A DNA stretch of 64,000 bases from Actinoplanes oblitus (GTDB lineage Bacteria > Actinomycetota > Actinomycetes > Mycobacteriales > Micromonosporaceae): NCBI RefSeq assembly GCF_030252345.1, contig NZ_CP126980.1, forward strand, positions 9,371,501-9,435,500. Reading direction: 5' to 3'. Of this stretch, positions 49,339-64,000 are shown piece after piece (within the stretch, counting starts at the first letter, position 1; each line of letters begins with the position of its first letter). The translations under genes and the position numbers were made by a program. A model generated the notes under the pieces. It was not told the DNA's origin and made no database searches. It saw only the letters and a program-made list of their open reading frames with translations.

Positions 49339-50057
49339 GCCGCACGTCCTCGGGTCCACGGGGTGAGCAGCCGGCCCAGCCCGGACAGCAGCAGGTCGAG
49401 GACCAGGGCCAGGCCCACGCAGAGCACGGTCCCGGTCATGATCTCCGCCTTGTAGAAGTTGTTCCGGAACCCGCCCAGGATGAGGTCGCCGAGGCCGCCC
49501 TGCCCGATCAGCGAGCCGACCGTGACGAGGGCCACAGTCGAGACGGTGGCCAGCCGCAGCCCGGTCAGGATGCCGGGGAGGGCGAGCGGCAACTCGACCC
49601 GCCAGAGCCGGCCGAACCGGCCGTACCCCATGCCGGTCGCCGCCTCGATGACCTCGGCCGGGACCTGGGTGAGCCCGGCCAGCGAGTTGCGGACCAGGAC
49701 CAGCAGCGCGTACAGCACCAGGGCGATCAGGACCGAGGTGGTGCTGGTGGTGCCGACCAACGGGGCCAGCAGGGAGAGCAGCGCCAGCGACGGGATCGTG
49801 TAGAGAATGCCGGAGAGTGCGAGAATCGGCGCGGTCAGCGGTCTGATCCAGTAGGCGACGACGGCGAGCGGCACGGCGACCAGCAGCGCGATGAGCACCG
49901 TCTGCGCGGTCAGCCCGGCGTGGAAGCGCAGGGCGGTGCCTATCGCGTCGGCGTTCTCGGTGACGTACCGCCAGGAGAACCACGGATTCCCCGGGCCGTC
50001 ATCGGCTGGTGCGGCCACCGGCGTCAGCGATGCCGGGCCCCAGGACAGGAGAGACAT
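49335..50057 (-). CDS. ABC transporter permease, OpuBB/ProW type (upstream copy)
   Basis: A 240-residue permease with about six helices and the EAA-type loop VPAEVIEAATGMGYGRFGRLWRVELPLALPGILTG. The ATG at 50057 lies only two bases from the divergent ATPase start at 50060, with no clear ribosome site. A later in-frame start, such as the GTG about 13 codons in, would free space for a promoter. The first 40 residues are polar, so either start leaves the helices intact. Confidence 0.88.
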   Translation of the reverse strand: MSLLSWGPASLTPVAAPADDGPGNPWFSWRYVTENADAIGTALRFHAGLTAQTVLIALLVAVPLAVVAYWIRPLTAPILALSGILYTIPSLALLSLLAPLVGTTSTTSVLIALVLYALLVLVRNSLAGLTQVPAEVIEAATGMGYGRFGRLWRVELPLALPGILTGLRLATVSTVALVTVGSLIGQGGLGDLILGGFRNNFYKAEIMTGTVLCVGLALVLDLLLSGLGRLLTPWTRGRAA

Positions 50058-50059
50058 AC

Positions 50060-51028
50060 GTGGACGCTACCGCGGCATCGATCACCCTGGCGGACGTCGG
50101 CAAGGTGTACCCGGACGGCACCGTCGCCGTCGAGGACTTCAGCCTGGAGGTACCGGCCGGCGAGCTGGCCGTGCTGATCGGCGCCTCCGGATCCGGCAAG
50201 TCGACGATCCTCCGGATGATCAACCGGCTGATCGAGCCGACCCGCGGCGAGATCACCATCGACGGCCGCAACGTCCTGAAGCAGGACCCGGTGCGGCTGC
50301 GGCGGCAGATCGGCTACGTGATCCAGAACGTCGGGCTGTTCCCGCACCAGACCGTCCGGGCCAACGTCGGCACGGTGGCGAAACTGCTCGGCTGGGACCG
50401 CAAGCGGATCACCGCGCGCGCCGACGAGCTGCTGGAGATGGTCGGGCTGGACCCGGCCCGGTACGGCAAGCGATACCCGCACGAGCTCTCCGGCGGCCAG
50501 CGGCAGCGCGTCGGGGTGGCCCGGGCGCTCGCCGCGGATCCGCTGGTGCTGCTGATGGACGAGCCGTTCTCGGCAGTCGACCCGATCGTGCGGGCCCGGT
50601 TGCAGGAGGAGTTCCTGCGCCTGCAGGCCGCGGTGCGCAAGACGATCGTGCTGGTCACCCACGACATCGACGAGGCGGTCCGGATGGGCGACCGGATCGC
50701 GGTGCTGGCCGAGGGCGGCCGGCTGCTTCAGTACGCCACGCCGGCCGAGCTGCTGAGCCGGCCCGCGTCGGCCGAGGTGCGGGACTTCGTCGGCGCCGAC
50801 CATGGCATCCGGCGCCTGGCGGTGACCCCGGTACGCGAGGTGATGTCCGCCTTCGACGGCTCCGGCGAGGGCCTGCCGAGCGTGGACGCCGCCGCCACCC
50901 TGCACGACGCGCTCGCCGTGATGCTCACCGAGAACGCCACCACGGTCCTGGTGACCGAGAACGGCCGCCCGGTCGGTCAGGTGACCCGGACGGCCGTGTT
51001 CGAGACACCGGCGGAAACCCCGGTCTGA
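50060..51028 (+). CDS. ABC transporter ATP-binding protein, OpuA/ProV type
   Basis: A 322-residue ATPase: Walker A GASGSGKST (41-49), Q-loop QNVGLFPHQTV, signature LSGGQRQRVGVA, Walker B LVLLMDEPFSAVD, and switch histidine in VTHDIDEA. The C-terminal 60 residues resemble one CBS-like unit (ATLHDALAVMLTENATTVLV), the ionic-strength sensor in OpuA. Start GTG at 50060 with AGGAGAG seven bases upstream. It is divergent from the permeases it should serve, an unusual arrangement for this transporter type. Confidence 0.92.
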   Translation: MDATAASITLADVGKVYPDGTVAVEDFSLEVPAGELAVLIGASGSGKSTILRMINRLIEPTRGEITIDGRNVLKQDPVRLRRQIGYVIQNVGLFPHQTVRANVGTVAKLLGWDRKRITARADELLEMVGLDPARYGKRYPHELSGGQRQRVGVARALAADPLVLLMDEPFSAVDPIVRARLQEEFLRLQAAVRKTIVLVTHDIDEAVRMGDRIAVLAEGGRLLQYATPAELLSRPASAEVRDFVGADHGIRRLAVTPVREVMSAFDGSGEGLPSVDAAATLHDALAVMLTENATTVLVTENGRPVGQVTRTAVFETPAETPV

Positions 51029-51031
51029 GCG

Positions 51032-51526
51032 CTACGACCGGGTGCCGCGCCAGCCGCCGAGGCTCGCCAGGCCGACGATCCAGCCGACGAACAGGCCGTA
51101 CTGAGCGCCGGTGCCGGCCGCCCGGAACGCGCCCAGTAGCGAGGGGTTGGTCAGGAAGAGGGTGGCCAGCAGGGCGGCGAAGCCACCGGCGAAGATGTAC
51201 GCGGCCCAGCCGGCGAAGAACTGGCTGATCGTGCCCCGGGCCCGGGCCAGCTGCGAACCCGGCAGCAGGACCAGGAAGAGCAGGGTCAGCACGACGACCA
51301 GAATCGCCTTGAGGTCGCCGACGACGACGTCGCGCAGTGAGTCGGAGCTGTCGAACTGCCAGGCCGGCCAGTGCAGCAGGCGCAGCCACCAGCCGCCGGC
51401 GGTGTTCTCGTTCGTGTTGTCGGCCACCCAGTCCCCGTACCAGGGACTGCCGAAGACCAGAACGAGTACGAGTGCGGCGATGGTGCCCGCACCGGGTGCG
51501 GTCTTGTACCGATTTCCGAGAGCCAT
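51032..51526 (-). CDS. Hypothetical four-helix membrane protein
   Basis: A 164-residue protein with four predicted helices (TIAALVLVLVFGSPW; LKAILVVVLTLLFLVLLPG; FFAGWAAYIFAGGFAALLATLFL; YGLFVGWIVGLASLGGW). Between helices 1 and 2 is an Asn/Trp-rich loop (ADNTNENTAGGWWLRLLHWP) likely outside the cell. No family recognised. Convergent with the ABC ATPase, 3 bp apart. Confidence 0.65.
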   Translation of the reverse strand: MALGNRYKTAPGAGTIAALVLVLVFGSPWYGDWVADNTNENTAGGWWLRLLHWPAWQFDSSDSLRDVVVGDLKAILVVVLTLLFLVLLPGSQLARARGTISQFFAGWAAYIFAGGFAALLATLFLTNPSLLGAFRAAGTGAQYGLFVGWIVGLASLGGWRGTRS

Positions 51527-51570
51527 GGCCCGGTATTTCCCTGCCGGGCCGCGCGCTCAAACGATGACCG

Positions 51571-51867
51571 TCACTCCCTGCTCAGATAGTCGATGAACGC
51601 GGCCCGGAGCAGCGGCTCCTGCTCGCCCAGGTCACGGCCCTCCAGCTCGCGCCAGAGGGCGACCGCCTCGTCCACGGTGGGGCCGATGGAGTTCGGCGCG
51701 CCGTCCAGCGCGGCGGCCTGGTCGGAGTCCGGCAGGTGTTTCAGCACCGACCAGAAGAACCGGACGTCGTGCCTCTCGCGGGCCTTGACGAAGGCGCGCT
51801 CGCGCAGCTCCTCGGTGGGCAGGGCGTCCAGTTCGGCGAAGCCGGGCATGGTCATGTCGGAAAGCAT
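51571..51867 (-). CDS. Small conserved hypothetical protein
   Basis: A 98-residue soluble, mostly helical, acidic protein (FAELDALPTEELRERAFVKA; DEAVALWRELEGRDLGEQEP). No cysteine pairs, signal or membrane segment. Starts at the ATG at 51867, four bases after the stop of the permease-like gene, so the two are probably cotranscribed; an ATG at 51855 is an alternative. No known family. Confidence 0.6.
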   Translation of the reverse strand: MLSDMTMPGFAELDALPTEELRERAFVKARERHDVRFFWSVLKHLPDSDQAAALDGAPNSIGPTVDEAVALWRELEGRDLGEQEPLLRAAFIDYLSRE

Positions 51868-51871
51868 ACGG

Positions 51872-53110
51872 TCAGCGGGTGGCGCTCCAGGGTCCGTCGT
51901 CCCAACGGTCGCCGCGGGCCGGCGGGGCGGCCGGGGTGTTCCAGGTCTCCGGCAGGGTGGGTGACCAGTTGCTCAGGCCGCTGGACGGCGCCGCGTTCCA
52001 GTCCTCCGACTTGGCCGCGCTGGCCAGCCGCCCGTACGACTCGACGATCCGGGTGGCGACCAGGCCGGCGGCGAACACCGCGCCGGCGATCGCGAAGAGC
52101 GCGATGTCCAGCTGCTTGCGGGTCTGGTAGTCCAGGAAGATGGTCAGCGCCATCACCGCGAAGAGGGTGCCGAAGATGCCGCCACGCCGGCCGTACGCGC
52201 TGGTCCCGCCGAGCAGGGCCAGGCCCAGGCCGATGCCGGTCCACTCCAGGCCGGTGCCGGGCTGGATCGGGCCGGCCGACTGACCGGCCAGGATGACGCC
52301 GGCGCCGGCCGCGAAGACCGAGGAGAGGATCAGGGCCAGCAGCACCGGCAGCACCACCGCGAAGCCGCGCCGCCCGGCCGGGTCGCCGGCCTGTCGCATC
52401 CGGCCGAAGAACCGGCGCACCGGGCCGATCGCGCCCAGCGCGCCGCCCAGCACGGCCAGCATCGCGAACCCGCCGAACAGCAGGAACGCCCGGTCGCTGG
52501 GCTCCCAGGGGCCCTGCACCGCGACCGCGCCGACCCGGAGCTGGTCGAACGTGATCACGCCGAACGCGGCGGCCAGGGTGACCGCCCAGCCGGGCACGTG
52601 CAGCACCAGGATCAGCAGGCCGGCCACCAGCCCGCCGGCGGCCGCGATGATCAGGGCCGGGACCAGTGCCTGGACCAGGCCCTTGTCGCCGTTCTCGGCG
52701 AACTGGAACTCGGCGGCCAGCACGATCGGGCCGATCGCCAGGTTGGGCACGCCGGCTCGCAGGGACAGCCCGGCGCCGAGCGTGATCAGGCCGATCGCGG
52801 CGCCGGTGACCAGCAGCGCGTCCAGCGCGGGGCGCTGCACGGCGGCCGCGTCCTCGCGCCAGAGCAGGAAGCCCAGCACGGCCGCGGCGACCAGCAGGAC
52901 GACCTCCCAGCCGAGGTGGACGCCGAGCCGGTCGCGGGCGTCGTCGGTGGTGGAGGTGGCGGCTCCCGGTGCGGTCACCGGGGCGCGCAACGACTGGTCG
53001 AGGGTGCCACCGGCGGTGTCGTCGAACTGCACGCGGCGCCGGTACGCGGCCGGATCCGACTCGCCGGTGCTCTCCCCCGGTTGCCGGATCGTCGTGTCGT
53101 CGTACGCCAT
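51872..53110 (-). CDS. Polytopic membrane protein resembling sugar-type ABC permeases
   Basis: A 412-residue protein: a polar N-terminal 60 residues, then about nine helices (EVVLLVAAAVLGFLLW; LLVTGAAIGLITLGAGLSL; VPALIIAAAGGLVAGLLILVL; and others), then a Trp/Pro-rich cytoplasmic tail. The segment AAIGLITLGAGLSLRAGVPNLAIGPIVLAAEF resembles the branched-chain/ribose (BPD_transp_2) permease family. No ATPase or binding protein is nearby, so transport partners, if any, are elsewhere. It may instead be a repurposed permease fold. Confidence 0.65.
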   Translation of the reverse strand: MAYDDTTIRQPGESTGESDPAAYRRRVQFDDTAGGTLDQSLRAPVTAPGAATSTTDDARDRLGVHLGWEVVLLVAAAVLGFLLWREDAAAVQRPALDALLVTGAAIGLITLGAGLSLRAGVPNLAIGPIVLAAEFQFAENGDKGLVQALVPALIIAAAGGLVAGLLILVLHVPGWAVTLAAAFGVITFDQLRVGAVAVQGPWEPSDRAFLLFGGFAMLAVLGGALGAIGPVRRFFGRMRQAGDPAGRRGFAVVLPVLLALILSSVFAAGAGVILAGQSAGPIQPGTGLEWTGIGLGLALLGGTSAYGRRGGIFGTLFAVMALTIFLDYQTRKQLDIALFAIAGAVFAAGLVATRIVESYGRLASAAKSEDWNAAPSSGLSNWSPTLPETWNTPAAPPARGDRWDDGPWSATR

Positions 53111-53236
53111 GGTCCGCGCCTCCTTACGCCTCCACCAGCGGTTCGAGGCGCACGCTACTCCGGGTCAGGTCGCCCGCCGCAGAGGATACGGATACGAGAC
53201 GGCCTCAGTTCAGAACCCTTAATGCTTCGACGCCGG

Positions 53237-53770
53237 TCAACGCCGGCCGGTCGGCCGGTCCGAGTCGTCGTCCTGGCGGTCCGGCCGGTCCGGAACGCGG
53301 CAGGCCCGCTCCAGCCAGAGCGCGGTGCCGACCAGGGCGGCCGCCGCGACCAGCGTGGTGGCCACCGTCGGCAGGTCCGACCTGGCCGCGTCGGTGGGCT
53401 CCAGCACCAGCCAGGCCAGCACGCCGGCGGAGAAGCCCGCGGTGAGCGAGCCGACCAGGGAGGACGCCTTGGCCAGCGCGACGTAGCGGGCGACGAGCAG
53501 CGGCTCGACCGGCGGGGCGCCGGGTTTGCGCTGGATCCGGGCGGCGGTGTTCTGCGCCAGGTAGCCCTCGGTGATGGCGAGCGCGACCAGCACCACGGCG
53601 GCCGTCCAGGGCAGCGGGGTGAGCCGGTAGAACAACTGGTTGTAACCGAGCAGCAGCCAGCCCAGCGCGGCACCGATCAGCGCCGCCAGCACCAGGGCGG
53701 AGACGCTCGTCGGGTGCAGCGACGGGTCGGTCCGGCGTCCGTGGGGGGAATCGTCGGGGTTGGCGCTCAC
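53237..53770 (-). CDS. DUF3180 membrane protein (Rv3605c-like)
   Basis: A 177-residue protein with four helices arranged as in DUF3180 (SVSALVLAALIGAALGWLLLG; WTAAVVLVALAITEGYLA; VALAKASSLVGSLTAGFSAGVLAW; VATTLVAAAALVGTALWL). The start is the GTG at 53770, overlapping the folK stop (GTGA). The same gene follows folK in M. tuberculosis (Rv3605c). Function unknown; coupling to folate genes is conserved across actinobacteria. Confidence 0.85.
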   Translation of the reverse strand: MSANPDDSPHGRRTDPSLHPTSVSALVLAALIGAALGWLLLGYNQLFYRLTPLPWTAAVVLVALAITEGYLAQNTAARIQRKPGAPPVEPLLVARYVALAKASSLVGSLTAGFSAGVLAWLVLEPTDAARSDLPTVATTLVAAAALVGTALWLERACRVPDRPDRQDDDSDRPTGRR

Positions 53771-54294
53771 ACCATCGACTCTAGCGACAGATCCGGACGC
53801 GGCGTCACTGCGGCGACGTCGGCGGCGAGTTCGGGCGCGCCGAGCAGAGCGGCCAGCGGGCCGTGCCCGGGCAACTCGCCGGCCGGCTGCACGTCGAGCC
53901 ACGGGCGCAGCACGAAGGCGCGCAGGTGGGCCCGTGGGTGCGGCAGGGTCAGCTCGGGGTCGGCGCTGAGCACCGGCCGGCCGTCGGCATCCCACACGGT
54001 GATCACGTCGACGTCCAGGGTGCGCGGTCCGAACCGGCGTTCCGGGTCGCGCTCGCGGCCTTCGGCCGCCTCACAGGCCCGGGCCCGCCGCAGCCAGTCA
54101 TGCGGTCCGGCCGCGGTGTCCTCGACCAGGATCACCGCATTGAGGTACGCCGGTTGCTCGGTGTCGCCCCACGGTGGTGTCTCGTAGACCCCGGAGACCA
54201 GCCGGACGCTCCCGCCGAGCAGGGACACCGCGGCCCGCAGGTGCGCGAGCCGGTCGCCCAGGTTGCTCCCGAGGGACAGCACCGCCCGGCTCAC
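53767..54294 (-). CDS. folK: 2-amino-4-hydroxy-6-hydroxymethyldihydropteridine diphosphokinase
   Basis: Pyrophosphorylates hydroxymethyl-dihydropterin for folate synthesis. The 175-residue protein has the pterin-binding LSLGSNLGDRLAHLRAAV, SGVYETPPWG, AYLNAVILVED, the ATP/Mg motif RRFGPRTLDVDVI and LPHPRAHLRAFVLRPW. GTG start overlaps the folB stop. Last enzyme gene of the folP-folB-folK unit. Confidence 0.96.
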   Translation of the reverse strand: MSRAVLSLGSNLGDRLAHLRAAVSLLGGSVRLVSGVYETPPWGDTEQPAYLNAVILVEDTAAGPHDWLRRARACEAAEGRERDPERRFGPRTLDVDVITVWDADGRPVLSADPELTLPHPRAHLRAFVLRPWLDVQPAGELPGHGPLAALLGAPELAADVAAVTPRPDLSLESMV

Positions 54295-54656
54295 GCGGCA
54301 CGCGCCTTCCGCAGGGTGACCGCGACGTCGCCGAACTCGTGCGGGATCGGGGCCTGCGGTTTGTGCACGGTGACCTCGGCGGCGGCCACCCGACGGTCGG
54401 CCAGGCAGACGTCGAGCAGCCGGTCGGCGAGCCGCTCCAGCAGGTTCACCGGCTCGCCGGTGAGCACCTCGACCAGGGCGGTCGCCAGCTCGCCGTAGTG
54501 CACGGTGTCGGCCACGTCGTCGGTGGCGGCGGCCCGGCTCAGGTCCAGGTCGAGCCGGACGTCGACGACGAAGTCCTGGCCCCGCTCGCGCTCGAAGTCG
54601 TAGACGCCGTGCCGGCCGCGGGCACGCAGCCCGGTCAGCGTGATCTGTCCGGTCAC
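54291..54656 (-). CDS. folB: Dihydroneopterin aldolase
   Basis: Converts dihydroneopterin to hydroxymethyl-dihydropterin. The 121-residue protein (from the GTG at 54656, preceded by GCGGGGAA) shows ITLTGLRARGRHGVYDFERE with the conserved glutamate, VDVRLDLDL, DTVHYGELATALVEVL, LLERLADRLLD and VTVHKPQAPIP with the catalytic lysine. A TTG at 54674 would add six residues. It lies 55 bp downstream of folP and overlaps folK. Confidence 0.95.
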   Translation of the reverse strand: MTGQITLTGLRARGRHGVYDFERERGQDFVVDVRLDLDLSRAAATDDVADTVHYGELATALVEVLTGEPVNLLERLADRLLDVCLADRRVAAAEVTVHKPQAPIPHEFGDVAVTLRKARAA

Positions 54657-54711
54657 CCGGTTCCCCGCAATCAACTCGATCCCCGCTGGGCGCGGGGCTG
54701 TGGGCGTACGT

Positions 54712-55641
54712 CTAGATCTTGCCGAGTCGCGGCGACCCGGTCGCGCGCCACACTGCCAACGCGTCGGCGGTCTCGCGGACCTGATGCACCCGGACGCCCC
54801 AGGCGCCGGCGGCGAACGCCAGCAGAGAGGTGGCCAGGGTGGCCGCCTCGCGGCCGTCCACCGGACGCGGCGTGCCGTCCGGCGCGGCCAGCAGCCGGCC
54901 CAGGTAGGTCTTGCGGCTGGCCCCGAACAGGACCGGGAAGCCGAGGTCGATCAGGACGTCGAGGTGGGCGCTGAGCGCCCAGTTGTGCTCGGCGGTCTTG
55001 GCGAAACCGAGACCCGGGTCGAGGATGATCCGGCCGGGGTCGACACCGGCCGCGATCGCCTCGTCGGCACGGGCCCGCAGCTCGTCGCGGACCTCGGCGA
55101 CCACGTCCTGATAGTCGGCCAGCCGCTGCATGTCGCGGGAGTGCCCGCGCCAGTGCATCAGGATCCACGGGCAGCCGGCGGCCGCGGCGACAGCCGCCAT
55201 CCCGGGGTCGGCCAGCCCGCCGGAGACGTCGTTGATCACCACGGCGCCCGCCGCGAGGGCCGCCTCGGCCACCGCCGCGCGAGTGGTGTCGATGCTCAGC
55301 CGGATCCGGGCGGCGGCCAGTGCCTCGATCACCGGTACCACCCGGGCCGTCTCGGTGGCGGCGTCGACACGCTCGGCGCCGGGGCGGGTGGACTCGCCGC
55401 CGACATCGACGATGTCGGCGCCCTGCCGGGACAGCGAAATGCCATGTTCGACGGCAGCTTCAAGATCAGCCCAGCGGCCGCCGTCGGAGAAGGAGTCCGG
55501 CGTGACGTTGAGGACGCCCATCACGACCGGGTGGTCCCGGTGCACCAGCTCGGCGCCGATGACCTGGGCCTCTGTCCGCGGAGTCAGCACTCGTCGAGAG
55601 TACGGGGCCGGGGTCGTTCGAACAGGTGTACGATGCGCCAT
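54712..55641 (-). CDS. folP: Dihydropteroate synthase
   Basis: Condenses p-aminobenzoate with dihydropterin pyrophosphate; the sulfonamide target. The 309-residue TIM barrel has MGVLNVTPDSFSDGG, DIVDVGGESTRPGAE (pABA loop), RLSIDTTRAAVAEAAL, INDVSGG, ILDPGLGFAKTAEHNW and LFGASRKTYLG. Its first 30 residues vary, so a downstream GTG (VLTPRTEAQ) is possible. It is divergent from the secretion-like operon. In M. tuberculosis the next gene upstream would be folE, which is not in this window. Confidence 0.96.
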   Translation of the reverse strand: MAHRTPVRTTPAPYSRRVLTPRTEAQVIGAELVHRDHPVVMGVLNVTPDSFSDGGRWADLEAAVEHGISLSRQGADIVDVGGESTRPGAERVDAATETARVVPVIEALAAARIRLSIDTTRAAVAEAALAAGAVVINDVSGGLADPGMAAVAAAAGCPWILMHWRGHSRDMQRLADYQDVVAEVRDELRARADEAIAAGVDPGRIILDPGLGFAKTAEHNWALSAHLDVLIDLGFPVLFGASRKTYLGRLLAAPDGTPRPVDGREAATLATSLLAFAAGAWGVRVHQVRETADALAVWRATGSPRLGKI

Positions 55642-55687
55642 GACGCTGATTCATCCATTCCTTCACCTTGGGTAACGAAACGGACGC

Positions 55688-55716
55688 TTGTTGCTCGCAA
55701 GTACGGGCCGTACTCT
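55688..55716 (+). promoter_or_regulatory. Putative promoter of the secretion-like operon
   Basis: TTGTTG (55688-55693) and TACTCT (55711-55716) are separated by exactly 17 bp, a good vegetative-type promoter. It points toward the pilin-like gene at 55885, leaving a leader of about 160 bases. Confidence 0.5.
55700..55714. promoter_or_regulatory. 15-bp palindrome overlapping the promoter (candidate operator)
   Basis: AGTACGG-G-CCGTACT has perfect 7-bp arms around one base. It covers the spacer end and most of the -10 element, the place expected for a repressor site. No regulator gene is adjacent in the window. Confidence 0.55.
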
Positions 55717-55748
55717 TCGGAACTGGGCATCATGAAGTAACCGAAGAG
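55713..55748 (+). promoter_or_regulatory. 8-bp inverted repeat in the operon leader
   Basis: CTCTTCGG (55713-55720) pairs perfectly with CCGAAGAG (55741-55748) across 20 bases. It overlaps the last bases of the palindrome, so operator binding and this hairpin may be linked. Confidence 0.45.
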
Positions 55749-55843
55749 AGCAGACGAGCATGGCAGTGCCCGAACGGCTCACTCGACGTGGTGAGCTACA
55801 GGCTGCACGATATGGGCGTTGCCGCAAGGCTTTACCACTGCAG

Positions 55844-55871
55844 CGTGTCCGCACCCCCCATACCGGACACG
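55844..55871 (+). promoter_or_regulatory. Hairpin abutting the ribosome site of the pilin-like gene
   Basis: CGTGTCCG (55844-55851) pairs with CGGACACG (55864-55871) around a 12-base C-rich loop. The GGGAGG ribosome site begins at the next base, so folding could affect initiation at 55885. Confidence 0.5.
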
Positions 55872-55884
55872 GGGAGGTTTACCG

Positions 55885-56181
55885 ATGATCGCCACCGAGC
55901 TCGCCGGACAGGTCGCGACGGCGTTCCATAGCGGTGTGCTCGCCGCCGCCGCGGAGCCCACGGGCATCAACACCTCGGGCATCGTCACTTTCTTTGCGAA
56001 AAACATCGCACCGATCCTGCTGGCGGTGCTCGGCGTGATCTTCATCGGCCGGGCCAGCCGCGGTGAGGTGTCCAAGGTCCTCACCAGCTCGGCGATCGCC
56101 ATCGTCGGCCTGGCCTTCATCGCCGGCGCGGCGACACTCTTCTTCGTCGGCGACTACCTGATCAAGCTGATCTTCAACTGA
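55885..56181 (+). CDS. Small two-helix membrane protein, VirB2/TrbC pilin-like
   Basis: A 98-residue protein with an N-terminal secretory-like stretch (GQVATAFHSGVLAAAAEPTG), then two helices (IAPILLAVLGVIFIGRA and SSAIAIVGLAFIAGAATLFFVG) joined by a short basic loop (SRGEVSK). Size and topology match VirB2/TrbC pilins. First gene of the type IV secretion-like operon, with GGGGAGG seven bases before the ATG. The pilin assignment rests on topology and context only. Confidence 0.7.
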   Translation: MIATELAGQVATAFHSGVLAAAAEPTGINTSGIVTFFAKNIAPILLAVLGVIFIGRASRGEVSKVLTSSAIAIVGLAFIAGAATLFFVGDYLIKLIFN

Positions 56182-56182
56182 G

Positions 56183-56545
56183 ATGCGGCTCCGGACCGAC
56201 GACGACATCTACCGGGCCCGCCTGGTCTATCTCGGCCCGCCCGGCTACACCCTGCCCGTCCACCTGCCGTACGCGCAGTACGGCATGTTCGTCGCGCTGG
56301 TGCCGCTCTTCATGGCCCTGCACTACCTGATCACGCTCGACTTCGACCCGTTCCCGGCCTGGGAGATCGCCCTCGCCATGGTCTCGACGTCGTACGTGTT
56401 CCGGCATGTCGACCCGGACCGGCCGGCTCGTGTCGTCATCCGCACCGCGCTCACCGACTGGCGCCGCACCCGCGAGCCCGCCGTGGAGCAACGCGATCCA
56501 CGACTTGTCGCCACTCGCATCCGGGTCCGGGAGGAGTTGGTATGA
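56183..56545 (+). CDS. VirB3/PrgI-like membrane protein
   Basis: A 120-residue protein with a soluble N terminus (ARLVYLGPPGYTLPVHLPYAQ), two adjacent helices (YGMFVALVPLFMALHYLITL; WEIALAMVSTSYVFRHV) and a cytoplasmic tail rich in Arg. The layout fits PrgI/VirB3, which in type IV systems sits beside the VirB4 ATPase. It begins two bases after the pilin-like stop. Its own stop overlaps a 12-codon reading frame (ATGA) that leads into the ATPase gene. Confidence 0.65.
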   Translation: MRLRTDDDIYRARLVYLGPPGYTLPVHLPYAQYGMFVALVPLFMALHYLITLDFDPFPAWEIALAMVSTSYVFRHVDPDRPARVVIRTALTDWRRTREPAVEQRDPRLVATRIRVREELV

Positions 56546-56580
56546 CCAGTTTGGCCATCCTCGGCGGTGTTGACGCATGA
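56542..56580 (+). CDS. Possible 12-codon coupling ORF (MTSLAILGGVDA)
   Basis: GAGGAG lies five bases before an ATG at 56542 that overlaps the VirB3-like stop (ATGA). The frame runs 12 codons and its own stop overlaps the ATPase start (ATGA at 56577-56580). It could hand ribosomes to the ATPase gene. Whether the peptide itself matters is unknown. Confidence 0.4.
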   Translation: MTSLAILGGVDA

Positions 56581-59500
56581 CCGGGAACATTCCGCGCGGG
56601 CATCCCGGCGCGGACGCCTCGAGGCCGGGCAGGCAAAGTAACGGTGTGCGCCCGGACAACTACTCCTCGGCAGAATCACTGGAAGACGTGGAAGAGCTGG
56701 TGGCCGCGCCCGGGCACGGTGGTGTCGCCGTGTTCCAGGCGCCGCACACGGTCCGGCCGACGGGGGCGCCGATGGACACCGCGATGGACATCGACTCGCC
56801 GTTCCTCGACCTCTTCGGCGGGACCGGGGCGCCCACCCGTCCGAGTGATCTTCCGGCGAACCCGGAGCCGACCAACGGGCATCATGCTCCGGCCACGGCG
56901 AACGGGCACTCGGCGCCGCCCACCTCGAACGGGTATCGGGGCGCGTCCCTCACCCGGGCTCCGGTCGCGCCGGACCCTGACTTCTACCCGGCTCCGGTCG
57001 CACCCGCCGCCAACGGGTCGTCAGCACCCGCCCTTGCCGGTCCCGCCGCCGCGGGCGCGCCGACTCGCCCGGACGGCCGGTCCGTTCCTGGCGGGCATCC
57101 GGTTCCTGACGGCCACACCGGTGCGAACGGGTCCTCGGTTCCGGGCGGGCCTTCCGTCCCCTTCGGGCCTCCGGTTCCCTTCGGGCCTTCCGTTCCCGGC
57201 GGGCCTTCCGTTCCGGACGCGCCCGGGGCCGACGATTGGGCCGAGTTCGACGAGTGGCCGCCGCAGCCGGCGCCGCCGATCGCCGCCGCACCACCGGCTC
57301 CGGTCGCGGCACCCACGCCGGCTCCGCTCGTCCAGGCGCCGGCTCCCGCGCTGCCGGTGCCCGTACCGGAAAAGGCCCCGGCCAAGCGCAAGGCGAAAGC
57401 CCCGGCCCGCCGGTCGGAGCCGAAGGCCGCCAAACCGGCGCCGCTGCGGCCGCAGAAACTCAAGTTCAGCGACCGCGATCCGGCCATCGAGCTGGCGATC
57501 AGCGAGATCGCCGGGCATCTGACCTTCACGCAGGGCACCGTGACGGCGTGGTACCACCTGCCCGAGGTGCGCTGGGCGTTCCGGCCGGACGCGGAGCGCG
57601 AGGCGCTGCTCAGCGCGATCTCCGAGCAGTACGCCGGCCTGGCCGGGTTCCGGCTGCACCTGCGGCGGACCACCCGGCCGTTCCCGGCCGACGAGTGGGC
57701 CCGCACCGTCGACTCGTTCACCAGCCGGCCGCTGCCCGACGTGCAGGGCGCCACCTCGTGGTCGGACCACATGGTCGGGGCGCAGCGTCACCTGCTCTCG
57801 ATGAGCCACGCGGAGGGGCAGACGTACCTCGGTGTCACGTTCGCCCGGCGCTCGCTCGGCGACACGTTCTCCGAGCGGATCCTGCGCGTCTTCGGCCGCG
57901 GCACGTCCGAGAACGAGCGGCGCAAGCTGGGCCGGACCGTCGAGCAGTTCGACGAGGTGCTGAACGCGTTCGGCATGCGCGGACGGCGGGTCACCCCGCA
58001 GGAGCTGGAGTGGCTGCTGTTCCGCTCGGTGGCGCTCTGCATGGCACCGCCCGGCCTGCTCTCCCCGGTCTCCAACGGCCACTGGGAGACCGGTGACCTG
58101 CTCGCGCTCACCGAGCAGGTCGAGCGCTACCGCACGCCGTACGGTTCCACCGTCAAGCTGGTCAACCGGATGACCGGCGAGGAGCGCCACGTCGCGGTCC
58201 TCTCGGTCGGCCGGATGGAACCGCTGGAGATCCCCGAGAAACACGAGCCGTGGCTGCACTTCCACGAGCGGCTGCCGTGGCCGATGGAGCTCTCCTCGCG
58301 GATCGACATCCTCGGCTCGAACAGCTCGTTCAAGAACCTGGAACACCGGCTCCGGATGATCCGGTCGCAGCAGCTGGACTACGCCGAGCACGGCATCGAC
58401 GCCCCGCCGGAGCTGGAGCGCCTGGCCAAACGCGCCCTGGTGATCGGCGACGAGATGACCACCGGCCTGCCCACCGACTCGGCCCGGGCACACGGCTGGC
58501 ACCGGATCGCCGTCGGCGGCGCCAACCGCGAGGAGTGCCTGGAACGCGCCCGGCGGTTGATCCAGCTCTACTCCCGCGAGCTGCGGATCTCCCTGCAGCA
58601 CCCGAAGAACCAGGACCAGCTGGCCCGCGAGTTCATCCCGGGCGAGCCGATCGCCAACACCGGCTACGTCCGGCGGATGCCGGTCAAGCTGCTGGCCGCG
58701 GCGCTCCCACAGGCCGCCTCCACGGTCGGGGACCGGCGCGGCGACCTGATCGGGCGGACCGCCGGCACCTGCCGCCGGCCGGTCTTCCTCGACCTGCACT
58801 TCCCGATGGAGGTGCGAGAGCGCTCCGGGCTCGGTGTCTTCGTCGCCGAGCCGGGTGGTGGCAAGTCCACGCTGATGGGCGCGCTCGGCTACCTGAACGC
58901 CCGACGTGGCGTGCAGGTGACCTTGCTCGACCCGTCCGGGCCGCTCGCCCGGCTGTGCCAGATGCCGGAGCTGCGGCCGTACTCGCGGGTGCTGAACCTG
59001 ACCGGTTCCGAGCAGGGGACGCTGGCGCCGTACGCGCTGATCCCCACCCCGATCCGCTCCGAGTTCTCCACCGGCCCGGCCGGCGACCGGGAGTACGAGA
59101 TCGCCGTCTCCAACGCCCGGGCCGAGCGCCGCATGCTGGTCCAGGACATCTGCTCGATGCTGGTGCCGCCGCAGGTGGCCAAGGAGGCGTCCACCGCGAC
59201 GCTGCTGCGGCACGCGGTACGGCAGGTCCCGGCCGAGGAGACGTCCACCCTCGACGACGTGGTCGCCACCCTCCAGGGCCTGGACGACGACGAGGGCCGG
59301 GAGCTGGCCAACCTGCTGCTGGACACCGCGGAGATGCCGCTCGCGCTGCTCTTCTTCGGCCGCCCGCCGCAGCACCTGCTCGGCGCCGACGCCGCGCTCA
59401 CCGTGATCACCATGGCCGGCCTGCGCCTGCCCGACCTGAAGATCGAGCGGGAGTACTGGTCAGCCGAGGAGTCCCTCGCCCTGCCGATGCTGCACACCGC

Positions 59501-60011
59501 GCACCGGCTCGCGGTCCGCCGCTGCTACGGCGGCTCGATGTCGTCGCGCAAGATGGTCGGCCTCGACGAGGCGCACTTCATGGAAGGCTGGCGGTCCGGG
59601 CGCTCGTTCCTGGTCCGGCTCGCCCGCGACTCCCGGAAATGGAACCTGGCCGCGCTGGTCGCCTCGCAGAACCCGCGCGACATCCTCGGCCTGGACGTGC
59701 AGAACCTCGTCTCCACGGTCTTCGTCGGCCGGATCGCCGAGGACCAGGAGATCGCATCCGAGGCGTTGCGGTTGCTGCGGGTGCCGGTCCACGACGGGTA
59801 CGAGGCGACGCTCGCCTCGCTGTCCCAGGTGGACACGTCGTCCCAGCATCGGTTGGGCTTCCGCGAGTTCGTGATGCGGGACGTGGACGGGCGGGTGCAG
59901 AAGATCCGCGTCGACGTTTCGTATGTCGAGGGTTTGTTGGAGCACCTGGACACGACGCCTGGGGCGGCACAGCCTGCGGTGGTGCCGCTACCGTCCGACC
60001 TGGAGGTTTGA
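56577..60011 (+). CDS. VirB4/TraC-type secretion ATPase with long disordered N terminus
   Basis: An 1144-residue ATPase. Residues about 1-290 are Pro/Gly/Ala-rich and likely disordered, including SVPGGPSVPFGPP repeats and a Lys/Ala-rich stretch (APAKRKAKAPARRSEP). The conserved part follows: an N-terminal VirB4 domain (about 300-700) and the ATPase core with Walker A EPGGGKST (758-765) and Walker B VGLDEAH (D997, E998), then LVASQNPRDILG. VirB4 proteins power type IV secretion and pilus dynamics. The start at 56577 is set by the overlap with the 12-codon frame; a GTG at 56646 is an alternative. Confidence 0.85.
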   Translation: MTGNIPRGHPGADASRPGRQSNGVRPDNYSSAESLEDVEELVAAPGHGGVAVFQAPHTVRPTGAPMDTAMDIDSPFLDLFGGTGAPTRPSDLPANPEPTNGHHAPATANGHSAPPTSNGYRGASLTRAPVAPDPDFYPAPVAPAANGSSAPALAGPAAAGAPTRPDGRSVPGGHPVPDGHTGANGSSVPGGPSVPFGPPVPFGPSVPGGPSVPDAPGADDWAEFDEWPPQPAPPIAAAPPAPVAAPTPAPLVQAPAPALPVPVPEKAPAKRKAKAPARRSEPKAAKPAPLRPQKLKFSDRDPAIELAISEIAGHLTFTQGTVTAWYHLPEVRWAFRPDAEREALLSAISEQYAGLAGFRLHLRRTTRPFPADEWARTVDSFTSRPLPDVQGATSWSDHMVGAQRHLLSMSHAEGQTYLGVTFARRSLGDTFSERILRVFGRGTSENERRKLGRTVEQFDEVLNAFGMRGRRVTPQELEWLLFRSVALCMAPPGLLSPVSNGHWETGDLLALTEQVERYRTPYGSTVKLVNRMTGEERHVAVLSVGRMEPLEIPEKHEPWLHFHERLPWPMELSSRIDILGSNSSFKNLEHRLRMIRSQQLDYAEHGIDAPPELERLAKRALVIGDEMTTGLPTDSARAHGWHRIAVGGANREECLERARRLIQLYSRELRISLQHPKNQDQLAREFIPGEPIANTGYVRRMPVKLLAAALPQAASTVGDRRGDLIGRTAGTCRRPVFLDLHFPMEVRERSGLGVFVAEPGGGKSTLMGALGYLNARRGVQVTLLDPSGPLARLCQMPELRPYSRVLNLTGSEQGTLAPYALIPTPIRSEFSTGPAGDREYEIAVSNARAERRMLVQDICSMLVPPQVAKEASTATLLRHAVRQVPAEETSTLDDVVATLQGLDDDEGRELANLLLDTAEMPLALLFFGRPPQHLLGADAALTVITMAGLRLPDLKIEREYWSAEESLALPMLHTAHRLAVRRCYGGSMSSRKMVGLDEAHFMEGWRSGRSFLVRLARDSRKWNLAALVASQNPRDILGLDVQNLVSTVFVGRIAEDQEIASEALRLLRVPVHDGYEATLASLSQVDTSSQHRLGFREFVMRDVDGRVQKIRVDVSYVEGLLEHLDTTPGAAQPAVVPLPSDLEV

Positions 60012-60012
60012 G

Positions 60013-61980
60013 ATGGTGCGGCGGGGGTTGGCGCTGTTTTCGACCTTGGTGATGATGGTGGTGGCGTCGGTCGCTTGGGCAGTCGCCGCCCCATCTAACG
60101 CTTACGCGGTTCCAAATAAACCTCCCAAGCCTACCGAAGCCTGCACTTTGAATGAGTGGAAAAACAACACTCAGCAGTGCGTTGACCGGCTCGTTGATGC
60201 TGTCGGCAACAAGACGACTTGCGATAATGCACCTACCCCAAGTACACCAGATTCCGGCTTGGCGGGCTGGTTCACGGAGATGCCGGAGGCGTCAACCGAG
60301 CCGGGCCCTAAGGGCATGTACACGCTCTATGGATATTCCGGATACAACTTCCCCAATTACGATCCAAATAGCGGTTGCATAGCATCAATAACCGAAGCAG
60401 ATTCTCACGTCGAATCAACTATTGCCAACGGCGAATTCATGCTGGCGACCGCAATCATCGGGGCTTCAAACGCACTCCGCGAGCGAGCCTGGGATCCTCA
60501 GTCCCTCTGGGGCTGGGCAGACACACTCGTACAGCAGGCGACCACCGCGGTATACCAAAAGGTTTTCACGGTCTTCGGAGTGATCACGCTCGCAATCGTA
60601 GGACTCTATCTTATCTGGCGTTCGCGGCAGGCGGACATGGGCGCCGCCACCACAACCGCAGGCTGGGCAATTCTCGTTATGGTTGGCGTTACAGCCATCG
60701 CAGCATGGCCAGTAAAGTCGGCCAACTTGGCGGATCAAACGCTGGTGACATCGCTGAACGTAATTCATGGCGCCATCGGACCCCAGCCAAAGACTGCCCA
60801 GAATGGAGCCGACTGCATACTCGGAAAAGCCGATGCGTGCACCGACAAGCGGCCCCCGGCCGTACGCGCCAGCGATACAGCCACCGAGACTGTTCTCTAT
60901 CGCAACTGGCTGCGAGGCGTTCTTGGATCCGCAGATAGCGAGACTGCACAGAAATACGGAATGGCACTTTACAGTGCACATTCTTTGCGATGGGATGAAG
61001 CGGAAACCATAAGGAAGCAGCCAGCTCTTCGGGATGGGATCCTTAGCCGTAAGAACGCCCAATGGACCGCCGTCGCGGAGCAAATCAAGACGGAGGACCC
61101 TGAGGCATACGAGTACCTTCAAGGCGCGAAAGGAATGGAACGGATCGGTTCGGGGTTCGTCGCAGTCCTTGCAGCCGCGATGTTCGCTATGTTCGACCTC
61201 ACTGCCTCCATACTGGTGTTGCTTGGTTTCTTGATATTCCGCTGGGCGGTCATTGCAGCACCCATCCTTGGCACGGTTGGCCTCCTTCGACCTGCAAGTG
61301 CAGGTATCCGACGGCTCGGCAATGCCGTAGTGGCGGCCATCTTCAACATTGCCATCTTCGGCACCGGTGCAGCGATCTATCTCTTTGCCGTCGACCTCAT
61401 CATGAACACAGCAACCCTGCCCGGATGGCTGCAAGTGGTTCTGGTGTGGCTGTGTGGCGTGGTCGGCTGGCTGCTGCTTCGCCCATATCGCCGCATCACT
61501 CAGCTCGGCGGCAAGGACAGTGCAGCGGCCATCGCCTCCGCCGGCTCCTGGCACCGTCGTTTCTTCCGCGACATGCGTGAGGCTGCGAAGCTTGAGGTTG
61601 CTGAAGGGGGCGGAACGCGGGAACCGATCATCGGCAAGGACGGTCGCGTAGTCTTCGTCGAACAGCGCAACCTGCGCCCCGAGGCCCGACTTGAGGATCC
61701 CGCGCACGCAGCGGCTACTCGAGGCGAGACGGTAGGCGCTACGCCAGATGAGTCCAGGCCCGCGCTTCCGACGCGTCCGGACGGCACCGAGACTGTGCGC
61801 ACTGACAAGCCTGTGGTGGAGACAACCAGCCGCCCCGTCCCAACTCGGACTCGACGTAACGCCGAATGGACCGAGCCCGACGTCGCGGAACGCCCCGCCT
61901 CCTATGCGATCTATCGGCCGGAAACGGGTGCCACCACCGAGGAACCGGCGACTCCGCGGGTGCGTTCCGAGGCCAGGTGA
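60013..61980 (+). CDS. VirB6-like polytopic membrane protein with signal peptide
   Basis: A 655-residue protein. A signal sequence (LALFSTLVMMVVASVAWAVAA) precedes a cysteine-containing extracellular region (about 30-150), then about seven helices (VFTVFGVITLAIVGLYLIW; AILVMVGVTAIAAWPV; VAVLAAAMFAMFDLTASILVLLGF; LPGWLQVVLVWLCGVVGWLLL), then a cytoplasmic tail rich in Arg, Glu, Thr and Pro. The layout is like VirB6/TrbL channel proteins. TGGAGG precedes the ATG at 60013, one base past the ATPase stop. Codon use in about 60080-61450 is strikingly AT-richer than in the neighbours (31 of 60 G/C at 60121-60180). Confidence 0.75.
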   Translation: MVRRGLALFSTLVMMVVASVAWAVAAPSNAYAVPNKPPKPTEACTLNEWKNNTQQCVDRLVDAVGNKTTCDNAPTPSTPDSGLAGWFTEMPEASTEPGPKGMYTLYGYSGYNFPNYDPNSGCIASITEADSHVESTIANGEFMLATAIIGASNALRERAWDPQSLWGWADTLVQQATTAVYQKVFTVFGVITLAIVGLYLIWRSRQADMGAATTTAGWAILVMVGVTAIAAWPVKSANLADQTLVTSLNVIHGAIGPQPKTAQNGADCILGKADACTDKRPPAVRASDTATETVLYRNWLRGVLGSADSETAQKYGMALYSAHSLRWDEAETIRKQPALRDGILSRKNAQWTAVAEQIKTEDPEAYEYLQGAKGMERIGSGFVAVLAAAMFAMFDLTASILVLLGFLIFRWAVIAAPILGTVGLLRPASAGIRRLGNAVVAAIFNIAIFGTGAAIYLFAVDLIMNTATLPGWLQVVLVWLCGVVGWLLLRPYRRITQLGGKDSAAAIASAGSWHRRFFRDMREAAKLEVAEGGGTREPIIGKDGRVVFVEQRNLRPEARLEDPAHAAATRGETVGATPDESRPALPTRPDGTETVRTDKPVVETTSRPVPTRTRRNAEWTEPDVAERPASYAIYRPETGATTEEPATPRVRSEAR

Positions 61981-61983
61981 CGC

Positions 61984-62529
61984 ATGTCGGGAATAGTCGC
62001 TCGCGCGTTGAACGCTCTTTTCCGTTCGCGATTGGGCATAGCGCTCGTCCTGATCGCCATCGTGCTGGCCGTGGTCGGTGTCGGCCGTCTCTTCTCGGAC
62101 GGCGAGTCGGCTTCACCGTCGCTCGGGCTGGGATCGCCGGCTCCGGCGATCAGCATCGATCCTTCCGAGGACGACAGTGTGGTCTCGTCCGAGGCGCCAC
62201 CAACACCCAGAACCAGCCCGGGGCGCGCTGAGCCCGAAGCGGTGGCCTACGCGTTCGCCTCGGCATGGGTGAGCCACACCGGCGTCACCTCGAAGAAGTG
62301 GCTCGACCGGCTGCTGCCGAACGCCACGGCTGATCTCGCGGATCAACTCCGAGGGGTGGATCCGGCCGGCGTCCCGGCTGACCGGGTGGTCGGCCGACCC
62401 AGCGTGAGCGCGGTCAATGACACGATGGTCAATGCGGTGGTGACGGTGAACTCTGGCCGGCTCAGCCTCCGCCTGGTGGCCCCGGACGGTCATTGGCTGG
62501 TCGACGGCATCGACTGGGCAGCGGCATGA
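61984..62529 (+). CDS. VirB8/TcpC-like membrane-anchored protein
   Basis: A 181-residue bitopic protein: a helix near the start (LGIALVLIAIVLAVVGVGRLF), a Ser/Pro/Glu-rich linker (about 40-80), and a C-terminal domain (PEAVAYAFASAWVSHTGVTS, WLDRLLPNATADL, VTVNSGRLSLRLVAPDGHWLVDGIDW) with the pattern of NTF2-like VirB8/TcpC domains. Such proteins link the outer and inner parts of type IV systems. Its stop overlaps the start of the muralytic gene (ATGA). Confidence 0.65.
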   Translation: MSGIVARALNALFRSRLGIALVLIAIVLAVVGVGRLFSDGESASPSLGLGSPAPAISIDPSEDDSVVSSEAPPTPRTSPGRAEPEAVAYAFASAWVSHTGVTSKKWLDRLLPNATADLADQLRGVDPAGVPADRVVGRPSVSAVNDTMVNAVVTVNSGRLSLRLVAPDGHWLVDGIDWAAA

Positions 62530-63647
62530 CTCTCCGGCGGCCCCGCAGGATCGTTCTCCTAGTGGCAGTTGTCGCGACGCTGGCGCTGCTGTGCTGCGGT
62601 GGAGCCACCACGGTGATCCTGTTCAGCGGACTGAACGACAAAGACGAGCAGAGTGATCTCAGTTCCGCCGCCTTCGGATGCGGCGAGGGCGGCCCGATCG
62701 ACCCGAGCGCCAAGCTGCCCAGCGTCGACGAGTACGGCCCGGCGCAGGTCCGCAACGCCGCCATCATCATCAGCACCGGTGCGAAGCTGAAGTTGCCGCC
62801 CCGCGCCTGGGTTATCGCGGTGGCCACCGCGATGCAGGAGTCAGGGCTCGTCAACCTCGGCGATCTGGGCGCCCGGAACGACCACGATTCGCTCGGTCTG
62901 TTTCAGCAGCGGCCCAGTTCCGGTTGGGGTACGCCCCGCCAGGTCCGCGATCCGGTTTATGCCAGCACGAAGTTCTACGAGAAGCTCAAGAAGGTTCGTG
63001 GCTGGGACAAGAAATCGTTGACCCGTGCAGCACAGGCCGTACAGATCAGCGCCTATCCGGACGCCTACGCCAAGCATGAGCAGGCCGCCACTCAGATGGT
63101 GAACAAGCTTGCTCATGGTGCAGCGAACGCTGTGGGCAACTCCGTCTCCATGGTGTGCGCGGCGGGTGGGCAGATCGCCGCCTCCGGCTGGACCGTCCCG
63201 GTGCATGCGGAGGTCGGTTCTGGGTTCCGCAGTCCGGATCGTCCCAACCACCAGGGCGTCGACCTGATCATTGGGCGATACACACCGATCGTGGCCGCCG
63301 CCAGCGGCATCGTGTCGATGGTCAAGTGCGACGAGGACTTCAGTGGCCGGAAGACCTGCGACGTCGATGGCTATCCGGGCAAGGGCGGCTGCGGATGGAT
63401 GGTGGAGATCCAGCACGCCGGGAATGTGATGACCCGCTACTGTCACATGGTGCAGCGACCGTTCGTTCACAAGAATCAGAAGGTGGAGGCCGGCCAGGTC
63501 TTGGGCAAGGTCGGCACCAGCGGAAACTCCTCAGGCCCGCACCTCCATTTCGAGGTGCACTTGAACAATGACAGATCAAGTGCAGGAGCAGTTAACCCCG
63601 TACCGTTCATGCAACGGCATGGGGCACCCCTAGGCAACGCAGGATGA
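62526..63647 (+). CDS. Bifunctional muralytic protein: lysozyme-like domain and M23 peptidase
   Basis: A 373-residue protein with an N-terminal anchor (IVLLVAVVATLALLCCGG). Residues about 65-185 form a transglycosylase-like domain (VIAVATAMQESGLVN with E105, LGLFQQRPSSGWGTP). Residues about 220-350 form an M23 metallopeptidase with zinc ligands H242 and D246 (NHQGVDLI) and H341 (PHLHFEV, with H339). Together they would cut both glycan and peptide links, opening the wall for the secretion machine. Overlaps both neighbours through ATGA. Confidence 0.88.
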   Translation: MTLRRPRRIVLLVAVVATLALLCCGGATTVILFSGLNDKDEQSDLSSAAFGCGEGGPIDPSAKLPSVDEYGPAQVRNAAIIISTGAKLKLPPRAWVIAVATAMQESGLVNLGDLGARNDHDSLGLFQQRPSSGWGTPRQVRDPVYASTKFYEKLKKVRGWDKKSLTRAAQAVQISAYPDAYAKHEQAATQMVNKLAHGAANAVGNSVSMVCAAGGQIAASGWTVPVHAEVGSGFRSPDRPNHQGVDLIIGRYTPIVAAASGIVSMVKCDEDFSGRKTCDVDGYPGKGGCGWMVEIQHAGNVMTRYCHMVQRPFVHKNQKVEAGQVLGKVGTSGNSSGPHLHFEVHLNNDRSSAGAVNPVPFMQRHGAPLGNAG

Positions 63648-64000
63648 TGGCCGAGAACATACCAGATCCCTTCTCCCATCTCGCAGATTGGGGAATAGAT
63701 CCTCCGCGTCCGATTGTTCCAACACCGGCAACAATGAGCGGCCAAACGCGGGGGCGCCGAGTGATAACCGGAGTACCCGGACATGGCTGGCGGGGCGATC
63801 TCCGAGCTGACGAGAAAGTCATCCAGGGAAGCCGTACCTATATTCCAATTATGCCAGAGTCGGAATGGTATCGAGCCGAATCCGAACAAACCGAAGTATT
63901 TGCCGCACTTGTACCGATTGACAGAATATGGGTCGAAGAATTAGGTATGGCGGCTACACCGAGCATGAATCCGCGCAGCGAGTCACGCTTGGTCTCCCTA
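63644..64000 (+). CDS. Unidentified operon gene, 5' part (continues off the window)
   Basis: The first 119 codons of a gene whose ATG overlaps the preceding stop (ATGA). The encoded start (MMAENIPDPFSHLADWGIDPPRP, then VITGVPGHGWRGDLRADEKV) is soluble and Pro-rich with no signal peptide; I do not recognise it. Composition is unusual: only 26 of 60 bases are G/C at 63841-63900, and there is an in-frame TTA leucine codon at 63941-63943. Its place in the operon suggests another secretion or relaxosome component. Confidence 0.7.
   Translation, partial: MMAENIPDPFSHLADWGIDPPRPIVPTPATMSGQTRGRRVITGVPGHGWRGDLRADEKVIQGSRTYIPIMPESEWYRAESEQTEVFAALVPIDRIWVEELGMAATPSMNPRSESRLVSL

Follow-up and report, generated by a model that had tools for sequence, protein, structure and literature searches.

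At the right-hand end of the window (the whole stretch of 64,000 nucleotides of the complete, 9.81-Mb chromosome of Actinoplanes oblitus that was analysed), a plus-strand operon lies between the folate genes folP and folE, both of which are on the minus strand. Judged from its predicted products, the six-gene cassette of this operon is a VirB2/3/4/6/8-like monoderm type IV secretion system (T4SS) channel with its own wall-cutting enzyme. It is fixed in the genus and the family, its gene content and order recur in the genus loci read, and relatives with all six genes are present on plasmids. The open reading frames (ORFs) were listed for window positions 49335-64000, and coordinates past the window were taken from an extended locus of the same genome (L005).

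The operon starts with a gene for a VirB2-like (pilin-like) protein with two hydrophobic helices (55885-56181), followed by genes for a VirB3-like (PrgI/TcpE-like) small membrane protein (56183-56545), a VirB4 ATPase (56577-60011), a VirB6-like polytopic membrane protein with large loops (60013-61980), a VirB8-like protein with one membrane helix and an NTF2-like domain (61984-62529), and a wall hydrolase with a muramidase-like domain, an M23 peptidase domain and one membrane helix (62526-63647). The seventh plus-strand ORF, u201, encodes a tandem-repeat soluble protein of 201 codons; 63644-64000 lies in the window and the gene ends at window-equivalent position 64249 (L005 9648-10250). From the VirB2-like gene to u201 the successive junctions are 1 bp, 31 bp, 1 bp, 3 bp and two 4-bp overlaps. 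An earlier sequence-only reading of the window had described six complete genes and one partial gene, overlapping or nearly so, and the ORF coordinates and junctions confirmed this. As the gene order recurs in 21/21 loci of the genus and on plasmids, it is not due to chance.

Predicted gene products

VirB4 gave the only match to Pfam AAA_10 in the genome (4.2e-23), matched NCBIfam TcpF at 2.5e-21, below the cut-off of that model, and its family profile found the VirB4 structure 4ag5 in the PDB at 2.7e-06. Walker A (AEPGGGKST) and Walker B (LDEAH) motifs are present, as is a long low-complexity N-terminus. The AlphaFold2 model of the VirB8-like protein resembles the structures of PrgL, TcpC (3ub1), CagV, TraM of pIP501 and VirB8, and the protein is accordingly modelled as a member of the VirB8/TcpC NTF2-like group. 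The hydrolase matched Peptidase_M23 (Pfam, 4.2e-23), and its residues 73-188 matched the solved muramidase 8b2e (7.7e-11), which predicts a wall hydrolase in the role of VirB1/TcpG/PrgK. Family alignment A6 shows that lineages differ in the second hydrolase domain, which is swapped (M23 in 15/21, NlpC/P60 in 5/21 and VanY in 1/21), and share the muramidase-like one.

The sequence-only reading had named the six genes as above. Its names for VirB4 (by profiles), VirB8 (by the structure model) and the two-domain hydrolase were upheld, and that for VirB6 held at family level: 10/22 members of the family matched CD3337/EF1877 of NCBIfam at E ≤0.001 (best 4.5e-11) and 18/22 at E ≤1, and the window copy did so at 0.008, below the cut-off. 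Hydropathy is consistent with this predicted VirB6 assignment. The VirB2 and VirB3 calls found no curated profile, and these two labels are suggested by gene order, topology and alignments. The VirB2-like protein had no Pfam or NCBIfam match and only chance matches in the PDB; it is a two-helix protein at the expected position (hydropathy; alignment A1), and its profile found a counterpart at the same place on 10/10 plasmids, on one of them weakly. The VirB3-like protein has the expected topology and position between the VirB2-like protein and VirB4, with 13 invariant columns (alignment A2), and the 19 members scanned gave only chance Pfam matches.

Two repeats were detected in u201 (hhalign probability 97.8). 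A domain of about 75 residues appears to be present in tandem duplicate and looks SH3/Tudor-like when modelled. Homologues of u201 were found in the cassette stretch of one genome of family f9 and after the hydrolase in genome G304 (1.7e-9, second half only).

Distribution and synteny of the chromosomal cassette

The VirB4 search covered all sampled genomes, and the six-gene cassette was read in the fetched loci. 'Genus' here denotes the grouping of the genome search, which takes in more than the organisms named Actinoplanes; the nearest named relatives of VirB4 are from Actinoplanes. The best 80 of 375 confirmed named VirB4 loci were in genera that we take to be Micromonosporaceae, and family f1 was therefore taken as this family. 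VirB4 was present in 60/60 genus genomes (own genome included), the others being 92-99% identical over the core.

In the order sample, 54/150 genomes had a VirB4 match (own genome included), with per-family totals taken from a separate genome listing. All members were positive in f1 (19/19, own included), f15 (18/18), f13 (5/5), f11 (2/2), f9 (2/2), f7 (1/1) and f5 (3/3, two of them at 1e-37 to 1e-43). Matches were also obtained in f4 (1/17) and f3 (1/5, 2e-15), and those in f14 (1/1) and f10 (1/19), both at about 5e-4, were probably due to chance. VirB4 was not found in the sampled genomes of f2 (19), f8 (19), f16 (17), f12 (2) and f6 (1). In the class sample, 37/296 genomes had a match at E 1e-20, 27 of these in family f31. 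The f31 chromosomes (L173-L180) have a T4SS-like cluster that is more distantly related and differs in its neighbours, and in L173 and L174 VirB4 lies several kb apart from the VirB6-hydrolase part.

The order folK-folB-folP, cassette, u201, FtsK, folE-ftsH was found in 21/21 genus loci (20 plus our own, of the 60 genomes), one of which ends at a contig end inside FtsK. The left neighbour folP (dihydropteroate synthase; 54712-55641; Pfam Pterin_bind, 1.1e-84) adjoins the cassette in all of them. On the right, u201 is followed by a minus-strand gene, an 865-residue FtsK/SpoIIIE ATPase, a membrane protein and an 86-residue helical protein (these last three at L005 11009-14585), and then by folE (L005 15640-16215) and ftsH. 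Thus folP does abut the operon, as the sequence-only reading had stated of the folate genes, and on the other side the block that separates it from folE extends 4.6 kb past the window.

The whole cassette was read in 28 loci of family f1. In the other f1 genera, the folP-folE placement recurred in 4/7 loci and the cassette was at a different place in 3/7, all from genus g4. The f13 and f11 cassettes lie near genes judged by eye to be infC, rplT or pheS, and that of f15 is at another place again. Since its places differ among families, the cassette was relocated during its history, yet retained. The sequence-only reading had proposed the edge of an integrative element and a comparison of folP-folE synteny; with VirB4 in 60/60 genomes and this synteny fixed, the cassette is fixed and vertically inherited, and is not the edge of a mobile element.

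The divergent intergenic region between folP and the operon (55642-55884) is kept across the genus, with 79% mean column identity and long conserved blocks in a 21-sequence alignment (A8). Three possible hairpins were noted in it. An E-value search of this region found no Rfam family save one chance match, and its covariation was not clearly above that of shuffles.

Selection, composition and phylogeny

The ratio of nonsynonymous to synonymous substitution rates (dN/dS) of VirB4 was 0.02-0.06 in four comparisons, compared with 0-0.15 for VirB3, 0-0.28 for the VirB2-like gene, 0.08-0.18 for folP and, where computable, 0.05-0.13 for VirB6, VirB8 and the hydrolase. By this measure VirB4 is under strong purifying selection. 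Synonymous divergence between close species was higher in VirB6, VirB8, the hydrolase and u201, and was high as far as the minus-strand gene. In the window genome, the G+C content at third codon positions (GC3) is low, 0.53-0.79, from VirB6 to the minus-strand gene (window 60013-64000 and L005 9645-10971), and changes abruptly at VirB4 and FtsK (0.92-0.96). VirB6 of three f13 loci is likewise low in GC3 (0.58-0.75). A tree of VirB3, VirB4 and FtsK and a tree of VirB6, VirB8, the M23 hydrolase and u201 had the same close groupings.

In an unrooted FastTree tree of 43 VirB4 sequences, the chromosomal copies of f1, f13 and f11 formed one plasmid-free clade, and plasmid copies were interspersed between other lineages. 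Because of this interspersion, cassettes have probably been exchanged between plasmids and chromosomes more than once.

Plasmid relatives

A tblastn search with the VirB4 core matched 341 plasmid records, 96 of them over 80% or more of the core, and all with less than 60% identity. Ten plasmids chosen among the best-scoring were read (six from Streptomyces, one from Nonomuraea, one from Pseudonocardia and two from Rhodococcus). Profiles of the chromosomal copies matched six genes in order on 8/8 non-Rhodococcus and 2/2 Rhodococcus plasmids. Departures from the pattern were a weak VirB2-like match (0.0022) on the plasmid that has an additional small gene ahead of VirB4 (the Nonomuraea plasmid, where this gene follows the VirB3-like one), and an annotated VirB8 of only 97 residues in the non-Rhodococcus set. 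The two Rhodococcus plasmids had VirB8 matches of 4e-8 and 9e-4, and their gene after the hydrolase also matched the VirB8 profile.

FtsK_SpoIIIE was matched above the cut-off on 7/10 plasmids, and an NCBIfam scan of seven plasmid ATPase proteins gave one match to a TraB model, a weak one (2.7e-05). Relaxase typing in the plasmid records was non-mobilizable for 9/10, and 9/10 were listed as linear by the topology flag of the record. Homologues of u201 were present on four of the six Streptomyces plasmids, the other two having been searched whole, and in three of those four the homologue adjoins a gene with a plasmid-partition or ParB annotation. No u201 homologue was found in the stretches of the four non-Streptomyces plasmids.

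Relaxase, coupling protein and linked FtsK

Profile scans of the operon proteins and the four genes after u201 gave no match to a relaxase, and the operon proteins gave none to VirD4. Extension to the right, which the sequence-only reading had suggested as a way to find a relaxase and a coupling protein, yielded an FtsK/SpoIIIE ATPase and no relaxase match. This linked FtsK, of the coupling-protein superfamily, follows the operon in 21/21 genus loci (one cut by the contig end). Its ATPase part is EccC-like and possibly secretion-like. No integrase or other mobility gene was seen by eye among the right-hand ORFs, for which no profile or att-repeat search was made.

In the whole genome, a search for the TrwC relaxase family (the one relaxase family searched genome-wide) gave one match, at 4.087 Mb, and TraG-D_C also gave one, in a VirD4-like protein at 4.076 Mb (1.3e-15 to CD1115, below the cut-off). 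A second T4SS-like cluster was noted there (G000:C1, about 4,068,000-4,088,000; L217), with SCO6880-family, VirD4-like, VirB8-like and hydrolase-like genes. The TrwC relaxase lies 10 kb further on, and both it and the VirD4-like protein are more than 4 Mb from the folP cassette. Judged from its genes, the cluster at 4.07-4.09 Mb is likely to be a second, separate system, a conjugative element.

Possible function

In the reading that we favour, the cassette is related of old to a plasmid transfer channel but is fixed in the chromosome, has no relaxase or VirD4, and now serves the cell; we consider this about evenly balanced between right and wrong. A domesticated secretion system was the better of the two proposals of the sequence-only reading. 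As the usual genes for selecting and loading DNA are lacking, the cell has probably recruited the channel for a task of its own. VirB4 would energise the channel through membrane and wall, VirB8 and VirB6 would form its membrane part, and the hydrolase would open the wall. The substrate might be DNA, delivered by a pump of the FtsK/SpoIIIE type, whose gene would be the adjoining one or lie elsewhere, which is the weakest link in this scheme, and the DNA would pass between hyphal compartments or neighbouring hyphae during growth or sporulation. DNA is favoured as the substrate because of the plasmid kinship, the FtsK-type neighbours and the plasmid location of u201.

Several observations weigh against this reading. 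The linked FtsK has two relatives elsewhere in the genome, with 41 and 44% identity, and most of the f1 genomes listed have copies as well, so its tie to the cassette is positional. It resembles the plasmid FtsK proteins in the ATPase part only (22-31% identity over 52-253 residues; best E 6e-4), in a comparison that took in the Streptomyces, Nonomuraea and Pseudonocardia plasmids. No FtsK adjoins the cassette in three g4 genomes or in the f13, f11 and f15 loci read. On 3/10 plasmids the nearby ATPase-like protein, of 665-689 residues, has no FtsK match in Pfam and is weakly linked to the FtsK set by BLAST. One cassette plasmid, from Rhodococcus, is circular and has a MOBP relaxase, and no terminal inverted repeats were found in 6/6 Streptomyces records tested, 'linear' being a topology flag only. 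The cmdABCDEF genes of S. coelicolor are the best functional precedent, although membership is not claimed, the two having been compared by description only; the available text on cmdA-F reports that their deletion left transfer of an SLP2 derivative unaltered (PMC2782261).

The main rival, which we regard as unlikely, is a dedicated protein-secretion T4SS, through which effectors or wall-active proteins would reach the medium or neighbour cells without VirD4. Relaxase-less chromosomal T4SSs are usually regarded as protein exporters, according to the part of the source available (PMC3158045), and the fast change of VirB6 and u201 between close species would suit such a role. So would the lack of a conserved coupling protein: TraG-D_C was matched at E <1e-10 in 26 of the 60 genus genomes and not matched in 14, against VirB4 in 60/60. 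However, no effector, chaperone or immunity gene recurs by eye beside the cassette across families, and FtsK-type ATPases on 7/10 plasmid relatives speak against protein as the substrate.

A general helper channel, which would transfer incoming plasmids or actinomycete integrative and conjugative elements bringing their own relaxase or TraB and would be selected indirectly, seems improbable. The plasmid cassettes are homologous, and many actinobacterial elements are described in the available text as having relaxases but no T4SS (PMC3158045); against this, the near-invariance of VirB4 within the genus points to the cell itself as the beneficiary, and not to elements that vary. A channel for DNA uptake in natural transformation has still poorer prospects. 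Its model would be ComB of Helicobacter, which also works without VirD4 and relaxase and the inner part of which equals the gene set of the cassette; the operon proteins, with no match to either, would agree, but no competence gene was seen by eye among the right-hand ORFs, on which no further search was made. The edge of an integrative conjugative element, or a decaying remnant of one, is hardly credible: T4SS genes are typical of such elements and VirB4 has relatives on plasmids, but VirB4 is present in 60/60 genomes and at one place in 21/21 loci, with stop-free frames and low dN/dS, no mobility gene was seen by eye among the right-hand ORFs, and the TrwC relaxase and VirD4-like protein stand at 4.07-4.09 Mb beside T4SS-like genes of their own.

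Beyond the favoured reading of a channel that serves the cell, a class of actinomycete DNA-transfer machine may be imagined in which an FtsK-type pump for double-stranded DNA works with a VirB-type channel and without a relaxase, as would suit plasmids that have ends. A single copy would have become part of the chromosomal core of entire families and would move chromosomal DNA from one hyphal compartment, or one mate, to another. This is tentative, and we would sooner expect it to fail than to hold.

T4SSs have been regarded as rare in Actinobacteria, in the text available to us (PMC3158045). Here, a near-invariant VirB4 and channel genes are found throughout the examined genomes of a family of antibiotic producers (by VirB4 search in each genome, and by reading of the whole cassette in 28 loci), and the plasmid relatives mostly carry FtsK-type ATPases. 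Two old questions become testable: the role of relaxase-less T4SSs in monoderms, and whether or not linear replicons move through a VirB-type channel.

Comparison with known systems

Literature searches found no paper on the fixed cassette. A single VirB4-like gene of M. lupini (Milup_08_42651), with neighbours of unknown function and related to those of two other Micromonospora, is probably the same locus; in the available part of that paper it appears as one gene in a table, without the cassette, its fixation or the plasmid relatives (PMC4182475). One VirB4 homologue is described as kept in three Frankia strains (PMC2266912, available part).

The cmdABCDEF genes (SCO4126-4131) are, in the available text, a chromosomal six-gene membrane cluster of several Streptomyces with a VirB4-like ATPase; the cluster is partly akin to plasmid transfer genes, three of its genes resembling those of SLP2, and without it sporulation and the segregation of chromosomes are disturbed (PMC2782261). 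The SCO6880 family is described in the same text as resembling cmdC; its model (NF042935) was matched above the cut-off only at 4.072 Mb, a second match being below the cut-off, and not in the folP operon.

With TraB conjugation of Streptomyces, which is described as independent of T4SS parts in the text available (PMC12857230), the cassette shares filamentous actinomycete hosts and, near most plasmid cassettes, FtsK-type ATPases; unlike it, the folP locus has a VirB-like channel set. The contrast that the sequence-only reading drew between the two is therefore not a matter of either-or, as 7/10 cassette plasmids carry FtsK-type ATPases too. The conjugative T4SSs of monoderms (pCW3 Tcp, pCF10 Prg, pIP501 Tra and Tn916-like) are alike in VirB4/TcpF, VirB8/PrgL-TcpC-TraM, VirB6/CD3337-EF1877 and the two-domain wall hydrolase; unlike them, the folP operon is a fixed chromosomal set in which no relaxase or VirD4 was found.

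The plasmid cassettes (among them those of Streptomyces pSSFR2, pRVR2 and pSM17C, of a Nonomuraea and a Pseudonocardia plasmid, and of Rhodococcus pNSL1) share all six genes and their order. Their VirB4 is 32-37% identical to the chromosomal one, and their hydrolase is annotated as NlpC/P60 or C40 in the 8 non-Rhodococcus copies, whereas the chromosomal one is M23. Unlike the chromosomal cassette, they are extrachromosomal, with their own ATPase and partition genes; judged from their gene content, they would serve as transfer modules.

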